From: a virus
DNA length: 29,702 nucleotides
IMG/VR virus record: IMGVR_UViG_3300032241_002402
Span: 1-29,702 of that record
Reading direction: 5' to 3' (one strand)
This document shows positions 2,733-27,342 of this stretch, one piece after another. Every line of letters begins with the position of its first letter. Positions within the stretch are counted from its first letter, which is position 1. A program made the position numbers and the translations under genes. The notes under the pieces are model-generated. The model ran no database searches. It saw only the letters and a program-made list of their open reading frames with translations, and was not told the origin of the DNA.

Positions 2733-2951
2733 TTGTCAAAAGAAGATGTAATAAAAATGGAGGGTGAAATTGTTGAAGTCTTGCCCAACACCCAATACCG
2801 AGTTCAAATTGAAAACTTTGAACGACCAATTTTAGCCAGCCTAAATGGTCGCATGCGTATGAATAATATCAAGGTTCTAGCCGGCGACTTTGTAGAAATA
2901 GAATTCAGTCCTTACGATCTCAACCGCGGCCGCATAGTGCGCCGCAGATAA
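2733..2951 (+). CDS. infA: Translation initiation factor IF-1
   Basis: A 72-residue protein, the same length as bacterial IF-1, colinear along its whole length: MSKEDVIKMEGEIVEVLPNT at the start, then a YRVQIEN beta strand, the NGRMRMNNIKVLAGD central block and the PYDLNRGRIVRR ending. IF-1 is an OB-fold protein that binds the 30S A site during initiation. The TTG start is chosen because it restores the canonical N-terminus; an AAGGA (2715-2719) lies 13 bases upstream. The next ATG (2757) would remove the first beta strand. A late-type promoter precedes it, so it may act late in infection. It ends one base before the convergent SGNH gene. The identification is strong. IF-1 in phage genomes is uncommon, and its benefit is unknown. 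Confidence 0.9.
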   Translation: MSKEDVIKMEGEIVEVLPNTQYRVQIENFERPILASLNGRMRMNNIKVLAGDFVEIEFSPYDLNRGRIVRRR

Positions 2952-2952
2952 A

Positions 2953-3564
2953 TTAAAACTCAAACGTTTCAATAAGATATTTGGCCGCTGAATCATGTGC
3001 GGCTTTTTCTGCATGGCCGCCATCAATGTTGAATTGTTTTTCTTTGGCCCAGTGCAGGAATCCGTGTCCTTCAAACAGCATCACTTTATTCCAGTTTATT
3101 AGATTTTTTAACGGACCAATGTACTCGTCTGGATCGCTCAACAAGGTACTGTGTATAACATCATCGTAGTCGAAGGTAAACACATAATCTATGCCTTGTG
3201 TTTTTAAAAATGTCTGCGTCAGTACTATTTCTTTCAAGGCCGAATATACCGGGGTATATTCCCAGCGGCCTGGACCCTGATACCATTGTTCTTCAAATCC
3301 GGCACCGGGCTTGTAGGTCGCCATGCTGGTGGTCATCCAACCATGTTCAGTTCTAAATTCTTGACGTATGGTGGTGGCCCAGTCAATCAAGACCAAATCG
3401 CCTGGTTCGTAGGTCTGGCTTATTACGGTACGAGCCAATTTGTGATTGGAATTAAGTGGCTTAACACGACTTACATATTCACGTCCTAGATATTGTGCTA
3501 TCTGTGCCGGAAATGCGAAATCATCTTTTATGGGACTAGAGCCGTAGGCAATTAATCTACTCAT
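2953..3564 (-). CDS. SGNH-hydrolase-like protein (paralogue 1 of 3)
   Basis: A 203-residue protein related to the products at 4675-5367 and 23942-24616. They share an N-terminal strand ending in a Ser-containing turn (here AYGSSP, S9/S10), then an LGREY-type segment, the LVLIDWATTIRQEF strand (compare the W-T/S-W-x-x-R block in the others), and a C-terminal DGGH (D-x-x-H) followed by AEKAAHDSAAKYL. These are the Ser and Asp/His positions of SGNH/GDSL esterases. It lies one base downstream of the ANL ligase stop (TAG-T-ATG), so the two are translationally coupled on the minus strand. This copy is the most diverged: the GDSF block and the FGSEL segment are not kept. Ester hydrolysis is inferred; the substrate is unknown. 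Confidence 0.6.
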   Translation of the reverse strand: MSRLIAYGSSPIKDDFAFPAQIAQYLGREYVSRVKPLNSNHKLARTVISQTYEPGDLVLIDWATTIRQEFRTEHGWMTTSMATYKPGAGFEEQWYQGPGRWEYTPVYSALKEIVLTQTFLKTQGIDYVFTFDYDDVIHSTLLSDPDEYIGPLKNLINWNKVMLFEGHGFLHWAKEKQFNIDGGHAEKAAHDSAAKYLIETFEF

Positions 3565-3565
3565 A

Positions 3566-4648
3566 CTAATACCTTTCGTTTAACCAGCTACGAGAAACTT
3601 TTCCAATTGGCGGGCTCACTGGAATATGTTCAACCTGTTGCAACAGTTGTGGCCAACAGTATTGACCCAAGCTCACTAGAAAATCTCTAACAGTGTGCGT
3701 ATCAGCTGTGCCAGTGTACAGGCATTTTACTGCGTTTGAGCCAAACACTACACAGTCGCCTATGTCCGGAACAGCCCTGCGCAGTTGACTTTCTAAACTG
3801 GCCGGATTCAGTTTGATACCGCGAACATTGATTTGATCCTTGCTACGCCCAAGAATACGATAATAACCAGCTTCATCCTGCTCGGCCAGATCGCCGGTGT
3901 CAAACCAATCAGTATGGCATACAGTGGGTCCACGCAACCACAAGTGTTGGCTACGAATTTCAGCTTCAACTCCATCTGGAAGACCCACGGTGCCTATGCG
4001 TTGCTCGCCCTCTAGCGGATTGGTAAAACAGTGACTTAGAGTTTCGGTCATGCCAAAGGATTCTACAACTGGTACACCAAACCGTTGTTTGAGATGCAGA
4101 TACAGTTCATTGCTCATGGGCGCACTGGCCGATCTTATAAATCTCAAATGCTCTAACGGCAGGCCGGATACGGTACGTAGAAAGTCAGGTATGGCCGTGA
4201 TAAAGGTGGGTGCATGGTCGGCCATGTGCTTGAGCTCTCGGACTGTGCTGAAGTGTGTTTCAAATCCTACAAATTTAGACAACCAGTACATGGTCTGCCC
4301 GTGTGCGTGCCACAAGGGCATGATGTTTACATAACGATCGTTGCTGGTAAGACTGTAGGTCGCTTGCATCTGGCTCAATTTTAAATCCAATTGTGCCTGA
4401 CTAAAACTACAGAACTTACTGTCGCCGGTGGTCCCAGAAGTGTACCAAAACAAGCGTTCATTGTCGTAGTCACTGCCGTCACGAAACTCTTCGCCCGAGT
4501 CGCGTATTAATAAACTCCAGTCTGCATTGTCCAATAAATATTTTAGTCGTGATTCAGTAGAATCAGGATTGACAATCATGACACTGTAATTTTCTAACTG
4601 ATCAATGTAGTTTTGTGGATTGCGAACGCACAGGACTGCTCGTTTCAT
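3566..4648 (-). CDS. Compact AMP-forming ligase of the ANL (acyl-CoA synthetase/NRPS adenylation) superfamily
   Basis: These enzymes activate a carboxylate with ATP to an acyl-adenylate and usually pass it to CoA or another acceptor. The core signatures are in order: A3 phosphate loop YTSGTTGDSK (residues 69-78), the PLWHAHGQTM region, ESFGMTET (A5), WFDTGDLAEQDEAGYY (A7), GRSKDQINVRGIKLNP (A8) and PPIGKVSR, where K350 is the expected catalytic lysine (A10). Both N- and C-terminal lobes are thus present and active-site residues look intact. At 360 residues it is well short of the usual 500-560, the loss being at the N-terminus. It forms a two-gene minus-strand operon with an SGNH-like gene and is divergent, 26 bases apart, from a second one. 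No carrier protein is visible. I could not predict the substrate. Confidence 0.85.
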   Translation of the reverse strand: MKRAVLCVRNPQNYIDQLENYSVMIVNPDSTESRLKYLLDNADWSLLIRDSGEEFRDGSDYDNERLFWYTSGTTGDSKFCSFSQAQLDLKLSQMQATYSLTSNDRYVNIMPLWHAHGQTMYWLSKFVGFETHFSTVRELKHMADHAPTFITAIPDFLRTVSGLPLEHLRFIRSASAPMSNELYLHLKQRFGVPVVESFGMTETLSHCFTNPLEGEQRIGTVGLPDGVEAEIRSQHLWLRGPTVCHTDWFDTGDLAEQDEAGYYRILGRSKDQINVRGIKLNPASLESQLRRAVPDIGDCVVFGSNAVKCLYTGTADTHTVRDFLVSLGQYCWPQLLQQVEHIPVSPPIGKVSRSWLNERY

Positions 4649-4674
4649 GGTGTACTTATTAACTCAATTTCTCA

Positions 4675-5367
4675 ATGGCAAAAATAGTATCGTTTGGTGA
4701 TAGCTTTGTGTTTGGCTCTGAACTGGCCCACAATGATGATGGTTCTCAGGCTTGGTGTGCCCTTGCGGCTCGTAAGCTAGGCGCTCAATACGAAACACAC
4801 GCAGTACCTGGGTGTGGAAACGATCACATAGCACGTCAGGTCTACAGTCATTTTTCCGCCAAATCAGCCGATACGACCCTGGCAGTTATCAACTGGACCT
4901 GGACACAGCGTTGGGATTTTTACATAGTAGAACACGAATCATGGATTACGTTGGGTCCAACTTGTGTGCCAGAAAAACTCCAGGACCTAGTCGACCGCAC
5001 ACAAGCTGAAGACTTGATTGAGTTTTATCGTGAACGAGCCAACAGCAGTTTACTCTGGAACAAATTTAGAAACTTACAAACTATCTGGGCTGTGCAGGGT
5101 TATTTGGAACGTCGAGGAGTGCGGACCATACAAACCTACATGGATTATCACCTGTTTGATCAAACTTGTCATGCGCCTGATTATATACGAGAGCTACAAG
5201 AACTATTACGACCCCGATTGGAACTGTTTGAAGGTCGTAATTTTGTTGACTGGAGCCGCGAGCGTGGGTTCGCTGTAACTGATCCGGGCTGGCATCCCTT
5301 AGAAGCGGCACATACAGCAGCGTGTGAGCTATGGCAAGATCGCTATGCTCAAGCCTTAAACCGATAA
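4675..5367 (+). CDS. SGNH-hydrolase-like protein (paralogue 2 of 3)
   Basis: A 230-residue protein starting MAKIVSFGDSFVFGSEL; GDSF carries the expected nucleophile S10. A GCGND segment (near residue 45) fits the Gly block, the INWTWTQRWDFY strand follows, and the C-terminal DPGWHPLEAAH supplies Asp and His, though with one more residue between them than the standard D-x-x-H. It is clearly a paralogue of 23942-24616 (shared FGSEL, W-T/S-W, WHPLEAAH). The likely activity is ester or acyl hydrolysis; the target is unknown. It is divergent from the ANL ligase gene with only 26 bases between starts, and I see no good promoter or ribosome-binding site there. Its stop TAA is embedded in the late promoter of the next gene. 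Confidence 0.65.
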   Translation: MAKIVSFGDSFVFGSELAHNDDGSQAWCALAARKLGAQYETHAVPGCGNDHIARQVYSHFSAKSADTTLAVINWTWTQRWDFYIVEHESWITLGPTCVPEKLQDLVDRTQAEDLIEFYRERANSSLLWNKFRNLQTIWAVQGYLERRGVRTIQTYMDYHLFDQTCHAPDYIRELQELLRPRLELFEGRNFVDWSRERGFAVTDPGWHPLEAAHTAACELWQDRYAQALNR

Positions 5368-5370
5368 ATA
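5363..5370 (+). promoter_or_regulatory. T4-late-type promoter (GATAAATA) upstream of superoxide dismutase
   Basis: GATAAATA matches the T4 late octamer at 7 of 8 positions. Its TAA doubles as the stop codon of the preceding gene. The start codon ATG at 5376 is exactly 6 bases past the octamer, where T4 late transcripts begin, so this predicts a leaderless mRNA. Confidence 0.7.
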
Positions 5371-5375
5371 TCTAC

Positions 5376-5918
5376 ATGCGTGAAATTATTGATCTAGTAG
5401 AAGCAACAACTCGTCCAGCCAAACTGGAAACTACTCCTTTGCCCTATACTCACAAGGACTTGGATCCTGTGATGAGTGCAGAAACCATTGAGTATCATTA
5501 TGAACACTTGGCCAAGGGCTATGCTAAAAAATACAATGCAGGTGAAGGTGATCCTGACTTCAACCGTGCTGGCAGTTTTTTACACAACAAATTTTTTCCA
5601 CAACTCAGGGCGCCCAAGGGTGCCAATCGACCCAAAGGTGCTGTACTAGAACTGATTGAATCCAACTTCAAAACCTATGAAGACTTTAAAGCAGCAGTTA
5701 AAGAAACTGCTATGAAAATTCAAGGAAGTGGGTGGGTATATCTCAGTACTGGTGGCGAAATTAAAACCATTCGCAATCATGCAGTCCGTACAGATATTTG
5801 TATGTTAATAGACTGGTGGGAGCATGCTTGGAGCCTAGATTACCAATGGGACAAAGAAAAATATCTAGATAATATCTGGCGCATTATTAACTGGGACGTG
5901 TGTAACGAACGATTATGA
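5376..5918 (+). CDS. Iron/manganese superoxide dismutase
   Basis: It converts superoxide to oxygen and hydrogen peroxide. The sequence is colinear with Fe-type Sod[21 protein letters not shown] near the start, H41 in EYHYEH, H70 in [13 protein letters not shown]-like QGSGWVYL (116-123), and D146/H150 in LIDWWEHAW. All four metal ligands (H41, H70, D146, H150) are therefore present. At 180 residues it is slightly short and carries about 20 extra residues at the N-terminus. ATG 5376 is chosen because it lies exactly at the predicted late transcription start and the longer in-frame ATG (5331) lies inside the preceding gene. It overlaps the Fe-S carrier gene by ATGA, suggesting a joint oxidative-stress function. 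Confidence 0.92.
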
Positions 5919-6241
5919 TAACAGTAACTGACAACGCAGTAGCAAAAATACAAGACATTTTGGCTGAAGAAAATAACCCTAATCTTAAACTTAGAGTTTT
6001 TGTTCAGGGCGGTGGATGCTCGGGCATGCAGTACGGTTTTACCTTGGATGAAGAACAGGCTGAGGATGACTGGGATCTTGACGTTAACGGTGTCAAAATC
6101 CTAGTGGATTCAATGTCGGGCCGATACCTTCAAGGTGCCGAAATAGACTACCGAGAAGATCCCATGGGATCAGCATTTAGCATCAAAAACCCCACGGCGC
6201 AGACCACCTGCGGTTGCGGATCCAGCTTTAGTCCCTACTAA
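5915..6241 (+). CDS. A-type iron-sulfur carrier (ErpA/IscA/HesB family)
   Basis: A 108-residue protein of normal family length that carries Fe-S clusters to apo-enzymes. The three conserved cysteines are C35 in [12 protein letters not shown] and C99/C101 in TTCGCGSSF, with the [17 protein letters not shown] block before the last pair. The first-cysteine block and C-terminal CGCGSSF are most like ErpA. It is translated from an ATG overlapping the superoxide dismutase stop (ATGA). Two radical SAM enzymes elsewhere in the window need 4Fe-4S clusters and could be clients, which is inference. The family call is very secure. Confidence 0.93.
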
Positions 6242-23908: not shown

Positions 23909-23928
23909 TCACCCTTGCAGTACCTTGG

Positions 23929-23936
23929 TATATATG
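23929..23936 (+). promoter_or_regulatory. Weak late-type promoter (TATATATG)
   Basis: TATATATG matches the late octamer at 6 of 8 positions. ATG 23942 is again exactly 6 bases past it, and no ribosome-binding site lies between. The positional match with 5363, 22776 and 25134 raises its credibility. Confidence 0.4.
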
Positions 23937-23941
23937 TACCT

Positions 23942-24616
23942 ATGAAACTAAAAAGTTTTGGTTGTAGTTTTATCTTTGGCTCTGAATTAGCCGACGATAA
24001 TTCAGATAAACCGTATGCTACCGCCAGTCAATTGACTTGGCCTGCGCACCTGGCTCGACATCTAGGGTATGAATACGAATGCTATGCCAGACCCGGTGCC
24101 GGTAATCTACAAATTGCTGAAGCAGTCTTGAATCAGCTGGCCAATCCTGAACCGGCCTTGTATGTGATTGGATGGAGTTGGATCGATCGGTTTGATTATT
24201 ATCCGGCCACTCCTAAGACTCCTAGCCGAAGTCCTTGGCGCACCATTATGCCCATAGATGAGGATCCAGTGGCTCAAGTCTACTACAGAGATCTACACTC
24301 AGAATACAGAGACAAGCTGACCACTCTGATACACATGCAGACCGTGTTGGACGCTCTAAATAAACACGATCATCGCTATATCATGACCTACATGGATGAA
24401 CTGACCTTTGATCAGCAGTGGCATACTACTCCGGCCGTAGTAAAACTACAGGCTCAGATCCAACCACATACTACACAGTTTGCAGATATGAGTTTTTTAG
24501 AATGGAGTCGCGCTAACGGCTATCCCGAAACCGACATGTGGCATCCATTGGAAGCAGCACACAAAGCAGGGGCTGCTTATCTAATTGCAAATTACAGTTT
24601 GATCCACTCAGCATAG
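23942..24616 (+). CDS. SGNH-hydrolase-like protein (paralogue 3 of 3)
   Basis: A 224-residue protein starting MKLKSFGCSFIFGSELADDN. The serine of the SGNH nucleophile turn is kept but the Asp of GDS is Cys. A PGAGNLQIAEAV segment fits the Gly block, VIGWSWIDRFDYY matches the paralogue at 4675, and TDMWHPLEAAHKAGA supplies D-x-x-H. A serine-esterase-type activity on an ester or acyl group is likely; the target is unknown. ATG 23942 is preferred over TTG 23915 because the homology begins at MKLKSFG and the late-type octamer predicts initiation there. The last 25 bases overlap the convergent methyltransferase gene. Confidence 0.65.
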   Translation: MKLKSFGCSFIFGSELADDNSDKPYATASQLTWPAHLARHLGYEYECYARPGAGNLQIAEAVLNQLANPEPALYVIGWSWIDRFDYYPATPKTPSRSPWRTIMPIDEDPVAQVYYRDLHSEYRDKLTTLIHMQTVLDALNKHDHRYIMTYMDELTFDQQWHTTPAVVKLQAQIQPHTTQFADMSFLEWSRANGYPETDMWHPLEAAHKAGAAYLIANYSLIHSA

Positions 24617-25128
24617 ATTCTGTTGCCATCCCAACTCAGTTCAACCAATCTATAACCAAATTGGTCAGTGAGTCTGATGTGTTCATCAAAGCTCCAGGCA
24701 TAAAACGGAATTGATTCACATTCACTATTGCCGTGATCCGCTTGCCCAGGATTACACCGCCAGTAGATTCTGCTGCCAGGGCCTAATAATAAACGGTCAA
24801 CTAGACTGATCTGATGTTCAATATCCTCGCGTGTACCAAAGTTGATACTACCGAGACAAAATGCTACATTAAATCCACTGTGTCCTTGTTCGTAATATTC
24901 CTCTAGAGTGCAACGATGGTCAGCTTCAGGAAAAGCTGGGTCAATACCAATCAAATTGTCAATACAACCCCGAAATGGATTGTCACCGCAACCAACATCG
25001 ATTACCCGTTCACCTGGTTGAATCTTGTTGATTAAGGCCCAACCGGTCTGGTTGTACTGGTCCAGGTTGCGATTTCTTGCACGCCAGGCACCGCTAAAAT
25101 AAGTATTGAGTGCTGATTGATCTATCAT
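24592..25128 (-). CDS. SAM-dependent methyltransferase (class I)
   Basis: A 178-residue class I methyltransferase. Motif I is ERVIDVGCGDNPF (42-52), which binds SAM, with an acidic end of the second strand in LIGIDPAF. NVAFCLGSINFGTREDIEHQ occupies the motif IV region and LLLGPGSRIYWRCNPG the motif V/VI region. These enzymes methylate small molecules, sugars or other acceptors, and the acceptor cannot be read here. An upstream TTTAAATA on the minus strand with its end 6 bases before ATG predicts a leaderless late transcript. It is divergent from the TctC-type gene and convergent with the SGNH gene. Confidence 0.8.
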   Translation of the reverse strand: MIDQSALNTYFSGAWRARNRNLDQYNQTGWALINKIQPGERVIDVGCGDNPFRGCIDNLIGIDPAFPEADHRCTLEEYYEQGHSGFNVAFCLGSINFGTREDIEHQISLVDRLLLGPGSRIYWRCNPGQADHGNSECESIPFYAWSFDEHIRLTDQFGYRLVELSWDGNRIYAEWIKL

Positions 25129-25133
25129 GCAAC

Positions 25134-25141
25134 TATTTAAA
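25134..25141 (-). promoter_or_regulatory. T4-late-type promoter (TTTAAATA, minus strand)
   Basis: On the minus strand TTTAAATA matches the late octamer at 7 of 8 positions and ends 6 bases before the methyltransferase ATG (A at 25128). This is the same leaderless geometry as on the plus strand at 5376, 22789 and 23942. Confidence 0.6.
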
Positions 25142-25154
25142 CTCTAAGGAACAT

Positions 25155-26126
25155 ATGAAAAAATTATTGCTACTCTTGCTTTTACCCATGTCAGTCTGGG
25201 CCTGGGAACCTACAAAACCTGTTACAGTTATTATAGGCAACACGCCTGGGGCTGGTAACGAAATTGCATTTAGAAAATTAGCAGAAATCATACAAAAAAA
25301 CAATCCCAAATTCAATTGTGTTGTCAGTAACATACCCGGTGCCGACAGCACAGTTGCCAACAACAAGTTCATGGAAGCCACTCCGGACGGCTACACAATT
25401 AATATTCCTAGCCACATGAGTAGCTATGTTACCAACGACATTTGGGAAGCCAAAATTAAAAAGTACCAATGGGATACATTTGTTGACGTGTTGACCATTG
25501 GCAAAAGTCCACTGGTATTGGTAGCCAGTCCTAAGTCTACGGTCAGCACACCGGTTGACTTTGTTCGATATATTGCCAAATCAACTCGCCCTGTGAACGT
25601 AGCTATTGGTGGTGGAGCACATAGAACTGCCTATGAGTATCTAATGACCAAGGCACATGCCGATCGCGAAATTGTTAAACCTATCAAGTTCAACGGTCCA
25701 CAACCTGCGGTTCTTAGTGTAGCCAGCTATGATGGTAAAACTGGAACAGAGTTTGGAATCATGCCGATCGCCGTAGCCAAACCCTTGGTCGATGCCGGCA
25801 AGGTCAAGGCCATTGGATTTACTGGAACCAAGACCATGCCACAGTATCCCACAGTGCCTTTGCTCAACACAGTAGCACCTGGCATCAATGTATATGCAGC
25901 CTGGTCAATTGAGTTGCCAGCCAATACCCCGAGCGACATTGTTGCCTGGTATCAAAAGACCTTTGCGGCAGCAATTCGTAGCCAAGAATACAAAGAATGG
26001 CGCGATCAAAATGTTGTGTTTTATGAAGAGTTAGAACTTACTCCGGCTGGCCTAAAACATCAAATGATCACGTTACGTGAAACATTCTTACCTGTGTTAC
26101 AACGGATTGATCTAGCCAAAGAATAA
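25155..26126 (+). CDS. TctC/Bug-family periplasmic solute-binding receptor
   Basis: A 323-residue secreted protein of the tripartite tricarboxylate transporter receptor (Bug) family. The signal peptide is MKKLLLLLLLPMSVWA with likely cleavage before WEP. The mature protein has the Bug features: KPVTVIIGNTPGAGNEIAFR, a SNIPGADSTVANNKFMEATP segment, DGYTINIPS, DVLTIGKSPLVLVAS, VNVAIGGGAHRTAYEY and the TMPQYPTVPLLNTVAPGINV ending. Bug proteins capture carboxylates or similar solutes and present them to TctAB. ATG 25155 with AAGGA (25146-25150) is preferred over the longer frame. No TctA or TctB is present, so it would need the host's transporter. This is a rare auxiliary metabolic gene for a phage. 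Confidence 0.9.
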   Translation: MKKLLLLLLLPMSVWAWEPTKPVTVIIGNTPGAGNEIAFRKLAEIIQKNNPKFNCVVSNIPGADSTVANNKFMEATPDGYTINIPSHMSSYVTNDIWEAKIKKYQWDTFVDVLTIGKSPLVLVASPKSTVSTPVDFVRYIAKSTRPVNVAIGGGAHRTAYEYLMTKAHADREIVKPIKFNGPQPAVLSVASYDGKTGTEFGIMPIAVAKPLVDAGKVKAIGFTGTKTMPQYPTVPLLNTVAPGINVYAAWSIELPANTPSDIVAWYQKTFAAAIRSQEYKEWRDQNVVFYEELELTPAGLKHQMITLRETFLPVLQRIDLAKE

Positions 26127-26734
26127 TGTTACTAATTGTAACCGGGCCGCAAGGCTCGGGCAATCATCTTTTTAGTAAAATCTTTGCGCTACATGCAGAT
26201 GTAGTTGGATGGAAACAGTTAAATCAACAATACTGGATTGGGCATGACCTGGAACCCTTTGCCAACTACTGGAAAAATCCTAAGTTACTAGAATCATTCT
26301 CTTGGGATCAAGACTATTACGTAACCAGCATCAGTTGTCCATATGTTTATCGCGGAGAAACAGTTGTTCCTGAGTATGATGAATTTATCAGTCGCTGTAC
26401 AGTTCCGGTTCGGTTGGCCATAATAGGTAGAGATCAAACTATATTACAGTATCAGCAGTCAAGAGTTCGTGGTAAGGAAACCAAACAAGAATTTTTAAAC
26501 ATAGTTGATGGTCTAATGAAATACAATCCGGTGTTTATCAGCCAAGAATTGTTGTATTTGTATGGTGCTAACTACGTTCAATCTCTAGGACAACAGTTGG
26601 GATTTCCAGTTAGTCAAGACGCAACAGCAATACAAGAAATATTACGAGAAGATGCAAATCGAAAGTATATCGAACCAGTGATTGCTCATTGGCTTGATGA
26701 AGAAGTTAAACGAGCAAGTAGAAAGCCTAAATGA
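26126..26734 (+). CDS. P-loop protein, sulfotransferase-like (first of two)
   Basis: A 202-residue protein starting LLIVTGPQGSGNHLFSKIFA, a P-loop-like turn of the sort that binds the 5'-phosphosulfate end of PAPS in sulfotransferases. A second candidate block, VRLAIIGRDQTILQYQQSRV, resembles the 3'-phosphate site (Arg then Ser in the next helix). Sulfotransferases transfer sulfate from PAPS to hydroxyl or amino groups. Its ATG overlaps the TctC-type gene stop by one base and its stop overlaps the next gene by ATGA. It could instead be a nucleotide kinase-like P-loop protein. The APS-kinase domain downstream in the same operon supports sulfotransfer. Confidence 0.5.
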   Translation: MLLIVTGPQGSGNHLFSKIFALHADVVGWKQLNQQYWIGHDLEPFANYWKNPKLLESFSWDQDYYVTSISCPYVYRGETVVPEYDEFISRCTVPVRLAIIGRDQTILQYQQSRVRGKETKQEFLNIVDGLMKYNPVFISQELLYLYGANYVQSLGQQLGFPVSQDATAIQEILREDANRKYIEPVIAHWLDEEVKRASRKPK

Positions 26735-27342
26735 AATATATCTTTATAGCCGGTGCTCCTGGCTCAAAATGGAGCAGTGTAGCAAAAAACATTTATTACA
26801 GTCCTGATGTGGACCGCACTGATCACACCAAAGCCCGCACCTATTATCATGATGCTTCGGGCGAAATGTTGCTGATGCATCAAGGTGCTTATTTTGATCC
26901 CGGCATGGAGTTTGACCTACCAGTAGATCTTACTACACTAAGTCGAGCAGAACTAGAACACCGCTTTGACGAGCCGTTTAGCGGTACAGGTGTGCGCATT
27001 ATCAAAAGCCATATATTTTGTCATAATATAGCGTTTCTTCGTTATACCTGGCCAGATACACCTATCATACTGGTGCACCGCGGGGACGACGCCTGCTTGG
27101 GTTGGTGGGTCAAGTGTGGCCATTTTAACATTACCTATCCCAGCTACACTAAGTATTACAAAGATTTACGTCAAATGGCAGTAGAAATCAAGCGACAAAA
27201 TAGTGACATGCGAGCACACTGGGATTTTGCCAGTTTTGTTTATGACAACGTTGGCCTGTGTGATCGGTTAGGCATAGCCGCGCCACCAGAACCATACAGA
27301 CAAACGTATGCCGACCACAAAGTAAGGGTAAAAGTATTATGA
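26731..27342 (+). CDS. P-loop protein, sulfotransferase-like (second of two)
   Basis: A 203-residue protein with FIAGAPGSKWSSVAKNIY at the N-terminus (P-loop-like turn) and IIKSHIFCHNIAFLRYTWPD and PIILVHRGDDACLGWW later, the latter resembling the 3'-phosphate-binding strand-helix of sulfotransferases. It is probably a divergent relative of the preceding product, though identity between them is low. It lies in a continuous chain of overlapping genes with the oxygenase (ATGA at 27339). The acceptor cannot be inferred. The call is based on motif shape and neighbourhood. Confidence 0.48.
   Translation: MKYIFIAGAPGSKWSSVAKNIYYSPDVDRTDHTKARTYYHDASGEMLLMHQGAYFDPGMEFDLPVDLTTLSRAELEHRFDEPFSGTGVRIIKSHIFCHNIAFLRYTWPDTPIILVHRGDDACLGWWVKCGHFNITYPSYTKYYKDLRQMAVEIKRQNSDMRAHWDFASFVYDNVGLCDRLGIAAPPEPYRQTYADHKVRVKVL

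Follow-up and report, generated by a model that had tools for sequence, protein, structure and literature searches.

Background

The nearest known counterparts of the enzyme considered here, a phage-encoded AMP-forming acyl-activating (ANL) ligase, are the oxalyl-/malonyl-CoA synthetases AAE3 (5ie0-5ie3), Pcs60p (8aff) and MatB (4fut, 3nyq), with which it has its fold and the order of its motifs in common. The relationship is recovered both by profile comparison (E 3.6e-39) and by structural comparison (Foldseek 4e-27; TM 0.76-0.84 by query length). However, the phage ligase lacks about 100-150 of their residues, most of them N-terminal, shows 20-23% identity to these enzymes, and reaches 97.5 bits where the malonyl-CoA synthase family requires 558; the position of AAE3 His319 is occupied by Ser205, followed by His206. 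Certain short bacterial ANL proteins, namely the 362-aa MenE-type PRK07824 and 4gs5 (358 aa), resemble it in length and N-terminal loss but are only weakly similar (47.7 versus 345 bits for PRK07824; E 7e-7 for 4gs5). A member of the same family from an uncultured Caudovirales phage is present in UniProt as 'Acs' (A0A6J7WHT9; 359 aa, 56% identity, TM 0.90), with a generic annotation only, and we found no account of what it does or of the genes around it.

A second set of comparable systems comes from glycan biosynthesis. Bacterial routes to N-acyl 4-amino sugars are established, and the NeuD, PglD, VioB and PerB enzymes acylate amino sugars. Homologues of PglD, VioB and PerB, and of the PseC/LegC aminotransferases of these pathways, are encoded near the phage ligase, and phages appear to have added a dedicated acyl-activating ligase to them. 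Phages alter host surface sugars by means of glycosyltransferases and acetyltransferases that use host donors. Pelagimyophages, which like the viruses discussed here are large phages with sugar-modifying genes, carry LPS O-chain modification genes in variable regions and provide a precedent in that these genes have been proposed to alter the host surface; the terms acyl-CoA, SGNH, GDSL and aminotransferase are absent from the main text of that report (PMC7029224).

Organization of the locus

The ligase was encountered in a 29,702-base IMG/VR virus record (IMGVR_UViG_3300032241_002402; hereafter the window), probably a fragment, in which phage structural and T4-like replication genes are recognizable by sequence. 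The three ORFs delineated by the first-pass annotation, the ligase and two SGNH-like genes (Table 1), have the correct boundaries. So does the TAG-T-ATG junction it described, where the ligase stop codon TAG is separated by a single T from the ATG of the 2953-3564 gene, as well as the 26-base gap (4649-4674) that separates the ligase start from the divergent plus-strand 4675-5367 gene.

Table 1. Coordinates of the locus and of related genes in the window
Feature	Position	Strand	Evidence or remark
IF-1-like gene, left flank	2733-2951	+	PF01176 1.9e-20
SGNH-like gene, 203 aa, coupled to ligase	2953-3564	-	1-base gap
AMP-forming acyl-activating (ANL) ligase, 360 aa	3566-4648	-	Pfam AMP-binding 3.4e-27
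Two-gene insert (ligase and coupled SGNH-like gene)	2952-4674	-	Empty sites in relatives
Resident SGNH-like gene, 230 aa	4675-5367	+	IF-1/SGNH/SOD/IscA gene order
Fe/Mn superoxide dismutase, right flank	5331-5918	+	PF02777 3e-21; probable start ATG at 5376
Third SGNH-like paralogue	23915-24616	+	Profile match 5.8e-59 and alignment
TctC periplasmic carboxylate-binding protein	25110-26126	+	PF03401 4.5e-18; ligase-linked TctC profile 5e-85

Six related phages (L006, L007, L014, L017, L029 and L044) provide the corresponding empty sites: in them a 4675-type SGNH-like gene lies 0-10 bases after IF-1, with SOD and IscA following in most of these relatives. In the window, this IF-1/SGNH-like junction is filled on the opposite strand by the ligase and the 2953 gene, which ends 1 base from the IF-1 stop. 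As IF-1 abuts the 4675-type gene in relatives devoid of the ligase, the 4675-5367 gene is a resident of the locus; the 50 IMG/VR relatives of this gene include only five whose loci contain the ligase. Thus, the minus-strand insert proposed earlier is real for the ligase and its coupled SGNH-like gene but does not extend to the divergent gene, and a three-gene cassette was rejected. Conservation of the ligase-SGNH pair among relatives divides along the same line. A search for the 2953-type subgroup that did not use the ligase as a criterion recovered 12 loci, and in all 12 contigs the ligase is the adjacent upstream neighbor on the same strand, at the IF-1 site and also beside DNA polymerase; the 4675-5367 gene has no such association. 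A second, separate SGNH-like subgroup is likewise mostly ligase-adjacent, with start-stop overlaps in many loci.

The flanking genes have some features of their own. The homologue of translation initiation factor IF-1 is a phage gene that occupies the same site in many relatives, and the Fe/Mn superoxide dismutase gene is kept together with one for an IscA-type Fe-S protein (5331-6241, plus strand) in related phages. Elsewhere in the window, near the TctC gene, the product of 26731-27342 (plus strand) gives a weak sulfotransferase-like match (PF13469, E 0.013). In two other phages (L070 and L071), the ligase and an SGNH-like gene (DUF6071, above cut-off) lie between genes for gp47- and gp46-like recombination nuclease subunits.

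A shortened but intact ANL ligase

The window protein contains the motifs A3 (YTSGTTGDSK, residues 69-78), A5 (FGMTE, 198-202), A7 (DTGDL, 250-254), A8 (GRSKDQI..G, 267-277) and A10 (GK350..SR), of which A3, A5, A7 and A8 are invariant or nearly so among 52 non-redundant members of the family, while the A10 lysine K350 is present in 52/52. This bears out its earlier description as an intact, shortened ANL ligase. Motifs A1 and A2 are absent and the N-terminal domain is incomplete, with the usual ~100 N-terminal residues missing; the Pfam match begins at profile position 166. Because the members start only ~65-70 residues before A3, the short N-terminus is a feature of the family rather than a sign of a broken gene. 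Comparison with the nearest relative yields a dN of 0.175 and a dS of 1.78, the latter near saturation, and hence a dN/dS of about 0.1; taken with the conserved motifs, this marks the ligase as a real gene under purifying selection, which also acts on the coupled SGNH-like gene.

An AlphaFold2 model built from the 52-sequence alignment has a pLDDT of 90.6 and replaced one made from four sequences (pLDDT 55). The adenylation fold, on whose presence the first-pass annotation had made its proposal depend, is found in this confident model: there are 633 PDB matches at E <= 0.001, and those listed at the top are all ANL enzymes, the best being the oxalyl-CoA synthetases 5ie3 and 8aff and MatB 4fut. 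Sequence profiles agree, in that most of their top matches are these same enzymes, and the window ligase falls far under every NCBIfam cut-off listed. The family conserves His114, Arg172 and Ser175, which, with positions counted from alignments, coincide with His214, Arg286 and Ser289 of AAE3. We take these AAE3 residues to be part of its oxalate pocket, and the correspondence would point to a small polar acid as the substrate.

A profile search of IMG/VR recovered 92 relatives, so that the family comprises at least this number of loci; the 80 kept are 51-74% identical, and match end to end in almost all cases. The counts given here refer to 52 non-redundant members. No close relative was detected among the 50,697 records of a cultured-phage collection, where identities of the matches are only 22-27% and several of the records bear bacterial metabolic gene names. 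Nor did two scans of 84,980 species genomes yield a cellular member, but as these were based on patterns of short exact peptides they could miss distant cellular relatives. The best plasmid-borne matches are 26-31% identical, and the annotated ones are ordinary malonyl-CoA synthases. The notion that such enzymes are rare in phages accordingly holds for cultured phages and fails for uncultured ones. A literature search found neither a description of the family nor a paper giving the pocket residues of AAE3 or MatB, and we conclude that this is a real and undescribed phage family. Such a shortened acid-activating enzyme, probably one that makes acyl-CoA, is encoded by many large uncultured phages. 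One phage has two divergent paralogues of the ligase on either side of a single DegT gene (L103:7944-10812).

The SGNH-like proteins

The 'SGNH-like' identity of the window genes is partly, and weakly, supported by their sequences, which fall under the Pfam cut-offs. In the coupled-gene subgroup, Ser10 of block I and His184 of block V are invariant, while the Asp181 of the DxxH motif is not conserved (D/N/Q at this position), the block III Asn is absent with a Thr in the region, and none of the seven members gives a Pfam match. The 4675-type proteins preserve Ser10, Asn49 and His207 (4675 numbering) without exception. Phage homologues of the SGNH-like proteins, the coupled gene's product included, match PF13472 at about 1e-5 to 1e-7 only. 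Comparison of an SGNH-like profile with solved structures returned no significant match. The acyl-ester hydrolysis ascribed to these genes at first is not established. On inspection, no obvious signal peptide is seen at the start of the SGNH-like proteins or of the ligase, suggesting a cytosolic role.

Gene-neighborhoods across the family

Table 2. Neighbors of 52 ligases compared with random centers in the same loci (2000 draws; shared descent uncorrected)
Neighbor	Within three genes (random)	Directly adjacent (random)	Adjacency relative to draws	Changes on ligase tree, at least
DegT sugar aminotransferase	25/52 (8.9)	14/52 (2.9)	above all 2000	13
LbH (NeuD/PglD-type) acyltransferase	21/52 (9.8)	9/52 (4.3)	not above all 2000	9
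SGNH-like	17/52 (8.3)	15/52 (3.0)	0 of 2000 as high	10
TctC carboxylate-binding protein	14/52 (7.0)	13/52 (1.8)	above all 2000	8
NMO/FabK-like oxidoreductase	11/52 (6.9)	11/52 (1.3)	above all 2000	3

Judged by these counts and by the profiles of the neighbors, the family sits in a recurring context resembling that of sugar acylation (Table 2). Part of the linkage is due to shared descent at a DNA-polymerase locus, and the enrichment of LbH proteins is weak at one gene on either side and clear only at three. The LbH protein is NeuD/PglD/VioB-like (TIGR03570, 1.6e-36; 125.8 bits, below the cut-off of 160.8), with PglD, VioB and PerB as its nearest PDB structures, and the DegT protein is nearest to LegC/PseC. 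In cluster c4 (e.g. L067) the latter is about 218 aa long as against about 370 aa normally and in the bacterial pathways, and is shortened like the ligase; it keeps the N-terminal and lysine-region motifs. SGNH-like and LbH genes never occur together near the ligase (0/52, Fisher 1.3e-5). Substitution of one for the other was rejected, as tree-independent pairs were not significant and one record (L056) has both, far apart.

In L072 (7992-12476) and L093 an SDR gene and one for a beta-keto acid cleavage enzyme (BKACE; PF05853 1.2e-91), which produces acyl-CoA, come after the ligase, so that this branch of the family belongs to a gene set for acyl-CoA. TctC, ligase and SGNH-like genes form operons with overlapping starts and stops in L134, L160, L164-L171, L183 and L185-L187, although TctA/TctB transporter genes were not seen among the recurring neighbors. 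Radical SAM genes also recur near the ligase.

Genes for LbH and DegT proteins and a matching glycosyltransferase-like gene are absent from the window itself, and DegT is also missing from the window-type relatives G001/G002. The record of L056, a close relative in which the ligase and two SGNH-like genes occupy the same site as in the window, additionally has a NeuD-type acyltransferase (L217:18718-19299) and a c16-type protein beside DNA polymerase; the latter, a type linked to the ligase family, is glycosyltransferase-like by inspection, with no family match. The window TctC protein has a signal-like N-terminus and belongs to the same family as the TctC adjoining the ligase in other phages. 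Neither the window nor 13 of 14 related records contain an acyl-carrier protein (ACP), in agreement with what was noted at the outset. An ACP-like gene (G016:C1:240632-240808; PF00550 2.5e-8) is present in the L130 record, a 265-kb phage with the ligase, far from the ligase gene.

Functional implications

The DegT, sugar-acyltransferase and esterase-like neighbors suggest that unusual acyl groups are put on sugars during infection, and we give about even credence to the ligase being an acyl-CoA ligase that provides the small acyl group with which sugars are acylated. Such an enzyme would use ATP to adenylate a carboxylic acid that is small and probably polar, and pass the acyl group from the adenylate to host CoA, and the acyl-CoA would then feed phage sugar-modifying enzymes. 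In many relatives an amino sugar would come from the DegT aminotransferase, to be N-acylated by the NeuD/PglD-type acyltransferase and used in a glycan of the surface or the virion. The coupled SGNH-like product may be a small and probably cytosolic serine enzyme whose substrate is this same acyl group, acting as a transferase, thioesterase or deacylase. We infer which acid is activated, which acceptor takes it up, which sugar is modified, in which direction the SGNH-like reaction runs and how the phage benefits; CoA is favored as acceptor given that an ACP is lacking from the window and from 13 of 14 related records, that the nearest enzymes form CoA thioesters and that CoA-using enzymes are encoded nearby. 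Of the acyl-modification system first suggested for a lipid, glycan or protein, it is the glycan version that is supported, by the sugar 4-aminotransferases and NeuD/PglD-type N-acyltransferases found across the family, without the hydrolytic step. More tentatively, this might constitute a virus-restricted pathway, in which the ligase activates an unusual small acid, and sugars of the host surface or the virion receive an acyl group other than acetyl from the phage's own aminotransferase, NeuD-type acyltransferase and SGNH-like enzymes. The lack of DegT, NeuD-type acyltransferase and glycosyltransferase-like genes in the window counts against sugar acylation, though the window is a fragment. 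So do the absence of DegT from G001/G002, the weakness of the LbH enrichment next to the ligase, the share of the linkage owed to common descent, and the sub-threshold Pfam scores and missing Asp and Asn of the coupled SGNH-like subgroup.

The main rival to sugar acylation is carboxylate scavenging, with which the TctC linkage is equally compatible. Here TctC would capture an external small (di)carboxylate, the ligase would trap it as a CoA thioester destined for host carbon or lipid metabolism, and an SGNH-like thioesterase would control the pool. The adjacency of TctC, its overlapping operons with the ligase in several loci, the TctC gene in the window, the oxalyl- and malonyl-CoA synthetases as best structural matches and the BKACE and SDR genes of L072/L093 are all in keeping with it. 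We nevertheless consider it unlikely, as most ligase loci have sugar-modification neighbors rather than a complete catabolic route, the TctA/TctB partners are not seen, and in the DNA-polymerase context the TctC slot is shared with an unrelated DUF2061-like gene.

The shortened N-terminal domain, the recurrent radical SAM genes, the dearth of ACPs and the NRPS-like 'RG' that the window ligase has within A8 would also be consistent with direct transfer of the acyl-adenylate to a non-CoA acceptor of the phage or host, such as a protein, an RNA, a modified base in DNA or a small metabolite, with the SGNH-like protein as transferase or eraser. This appears improbable: the closest folds are CoA ligases, CoA-using enzymes (NeuD-type acyltransferase, BKACE) are linked to the gene, and the A8 glycine is conserved but the arginine preceding it is not family-wide. 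It is hardly probable, moreover, that the ligase and the SGNH-like gene travel as passengers with no joint pathway, brought together by cassette shuffling in hypervariable phage loci. The clean insert boundaries, the differing neighbors from phage to phage and the several linkages that track genome lineage could be read in this way, but the exclusive pairing with the coupled SGNH subgroup, the overlapping reading frames of many pairs, the neighbor enrichment above random positions and the selective constraint on both genes argue otherwise.

If sugar acylation by way of a phage-borne acid-activating enzyme is true, phages would not only modify sugars but also make the acyl donor. Their own acyl supply would allow a phage-made glycan decoration, with a wider chemistry available for receptor masking, superinfection exclusion and virion glycans. 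The family is large and, by its motifs, catalytically intact, and its repeated gene partners offer direct hypotheses for the next step.
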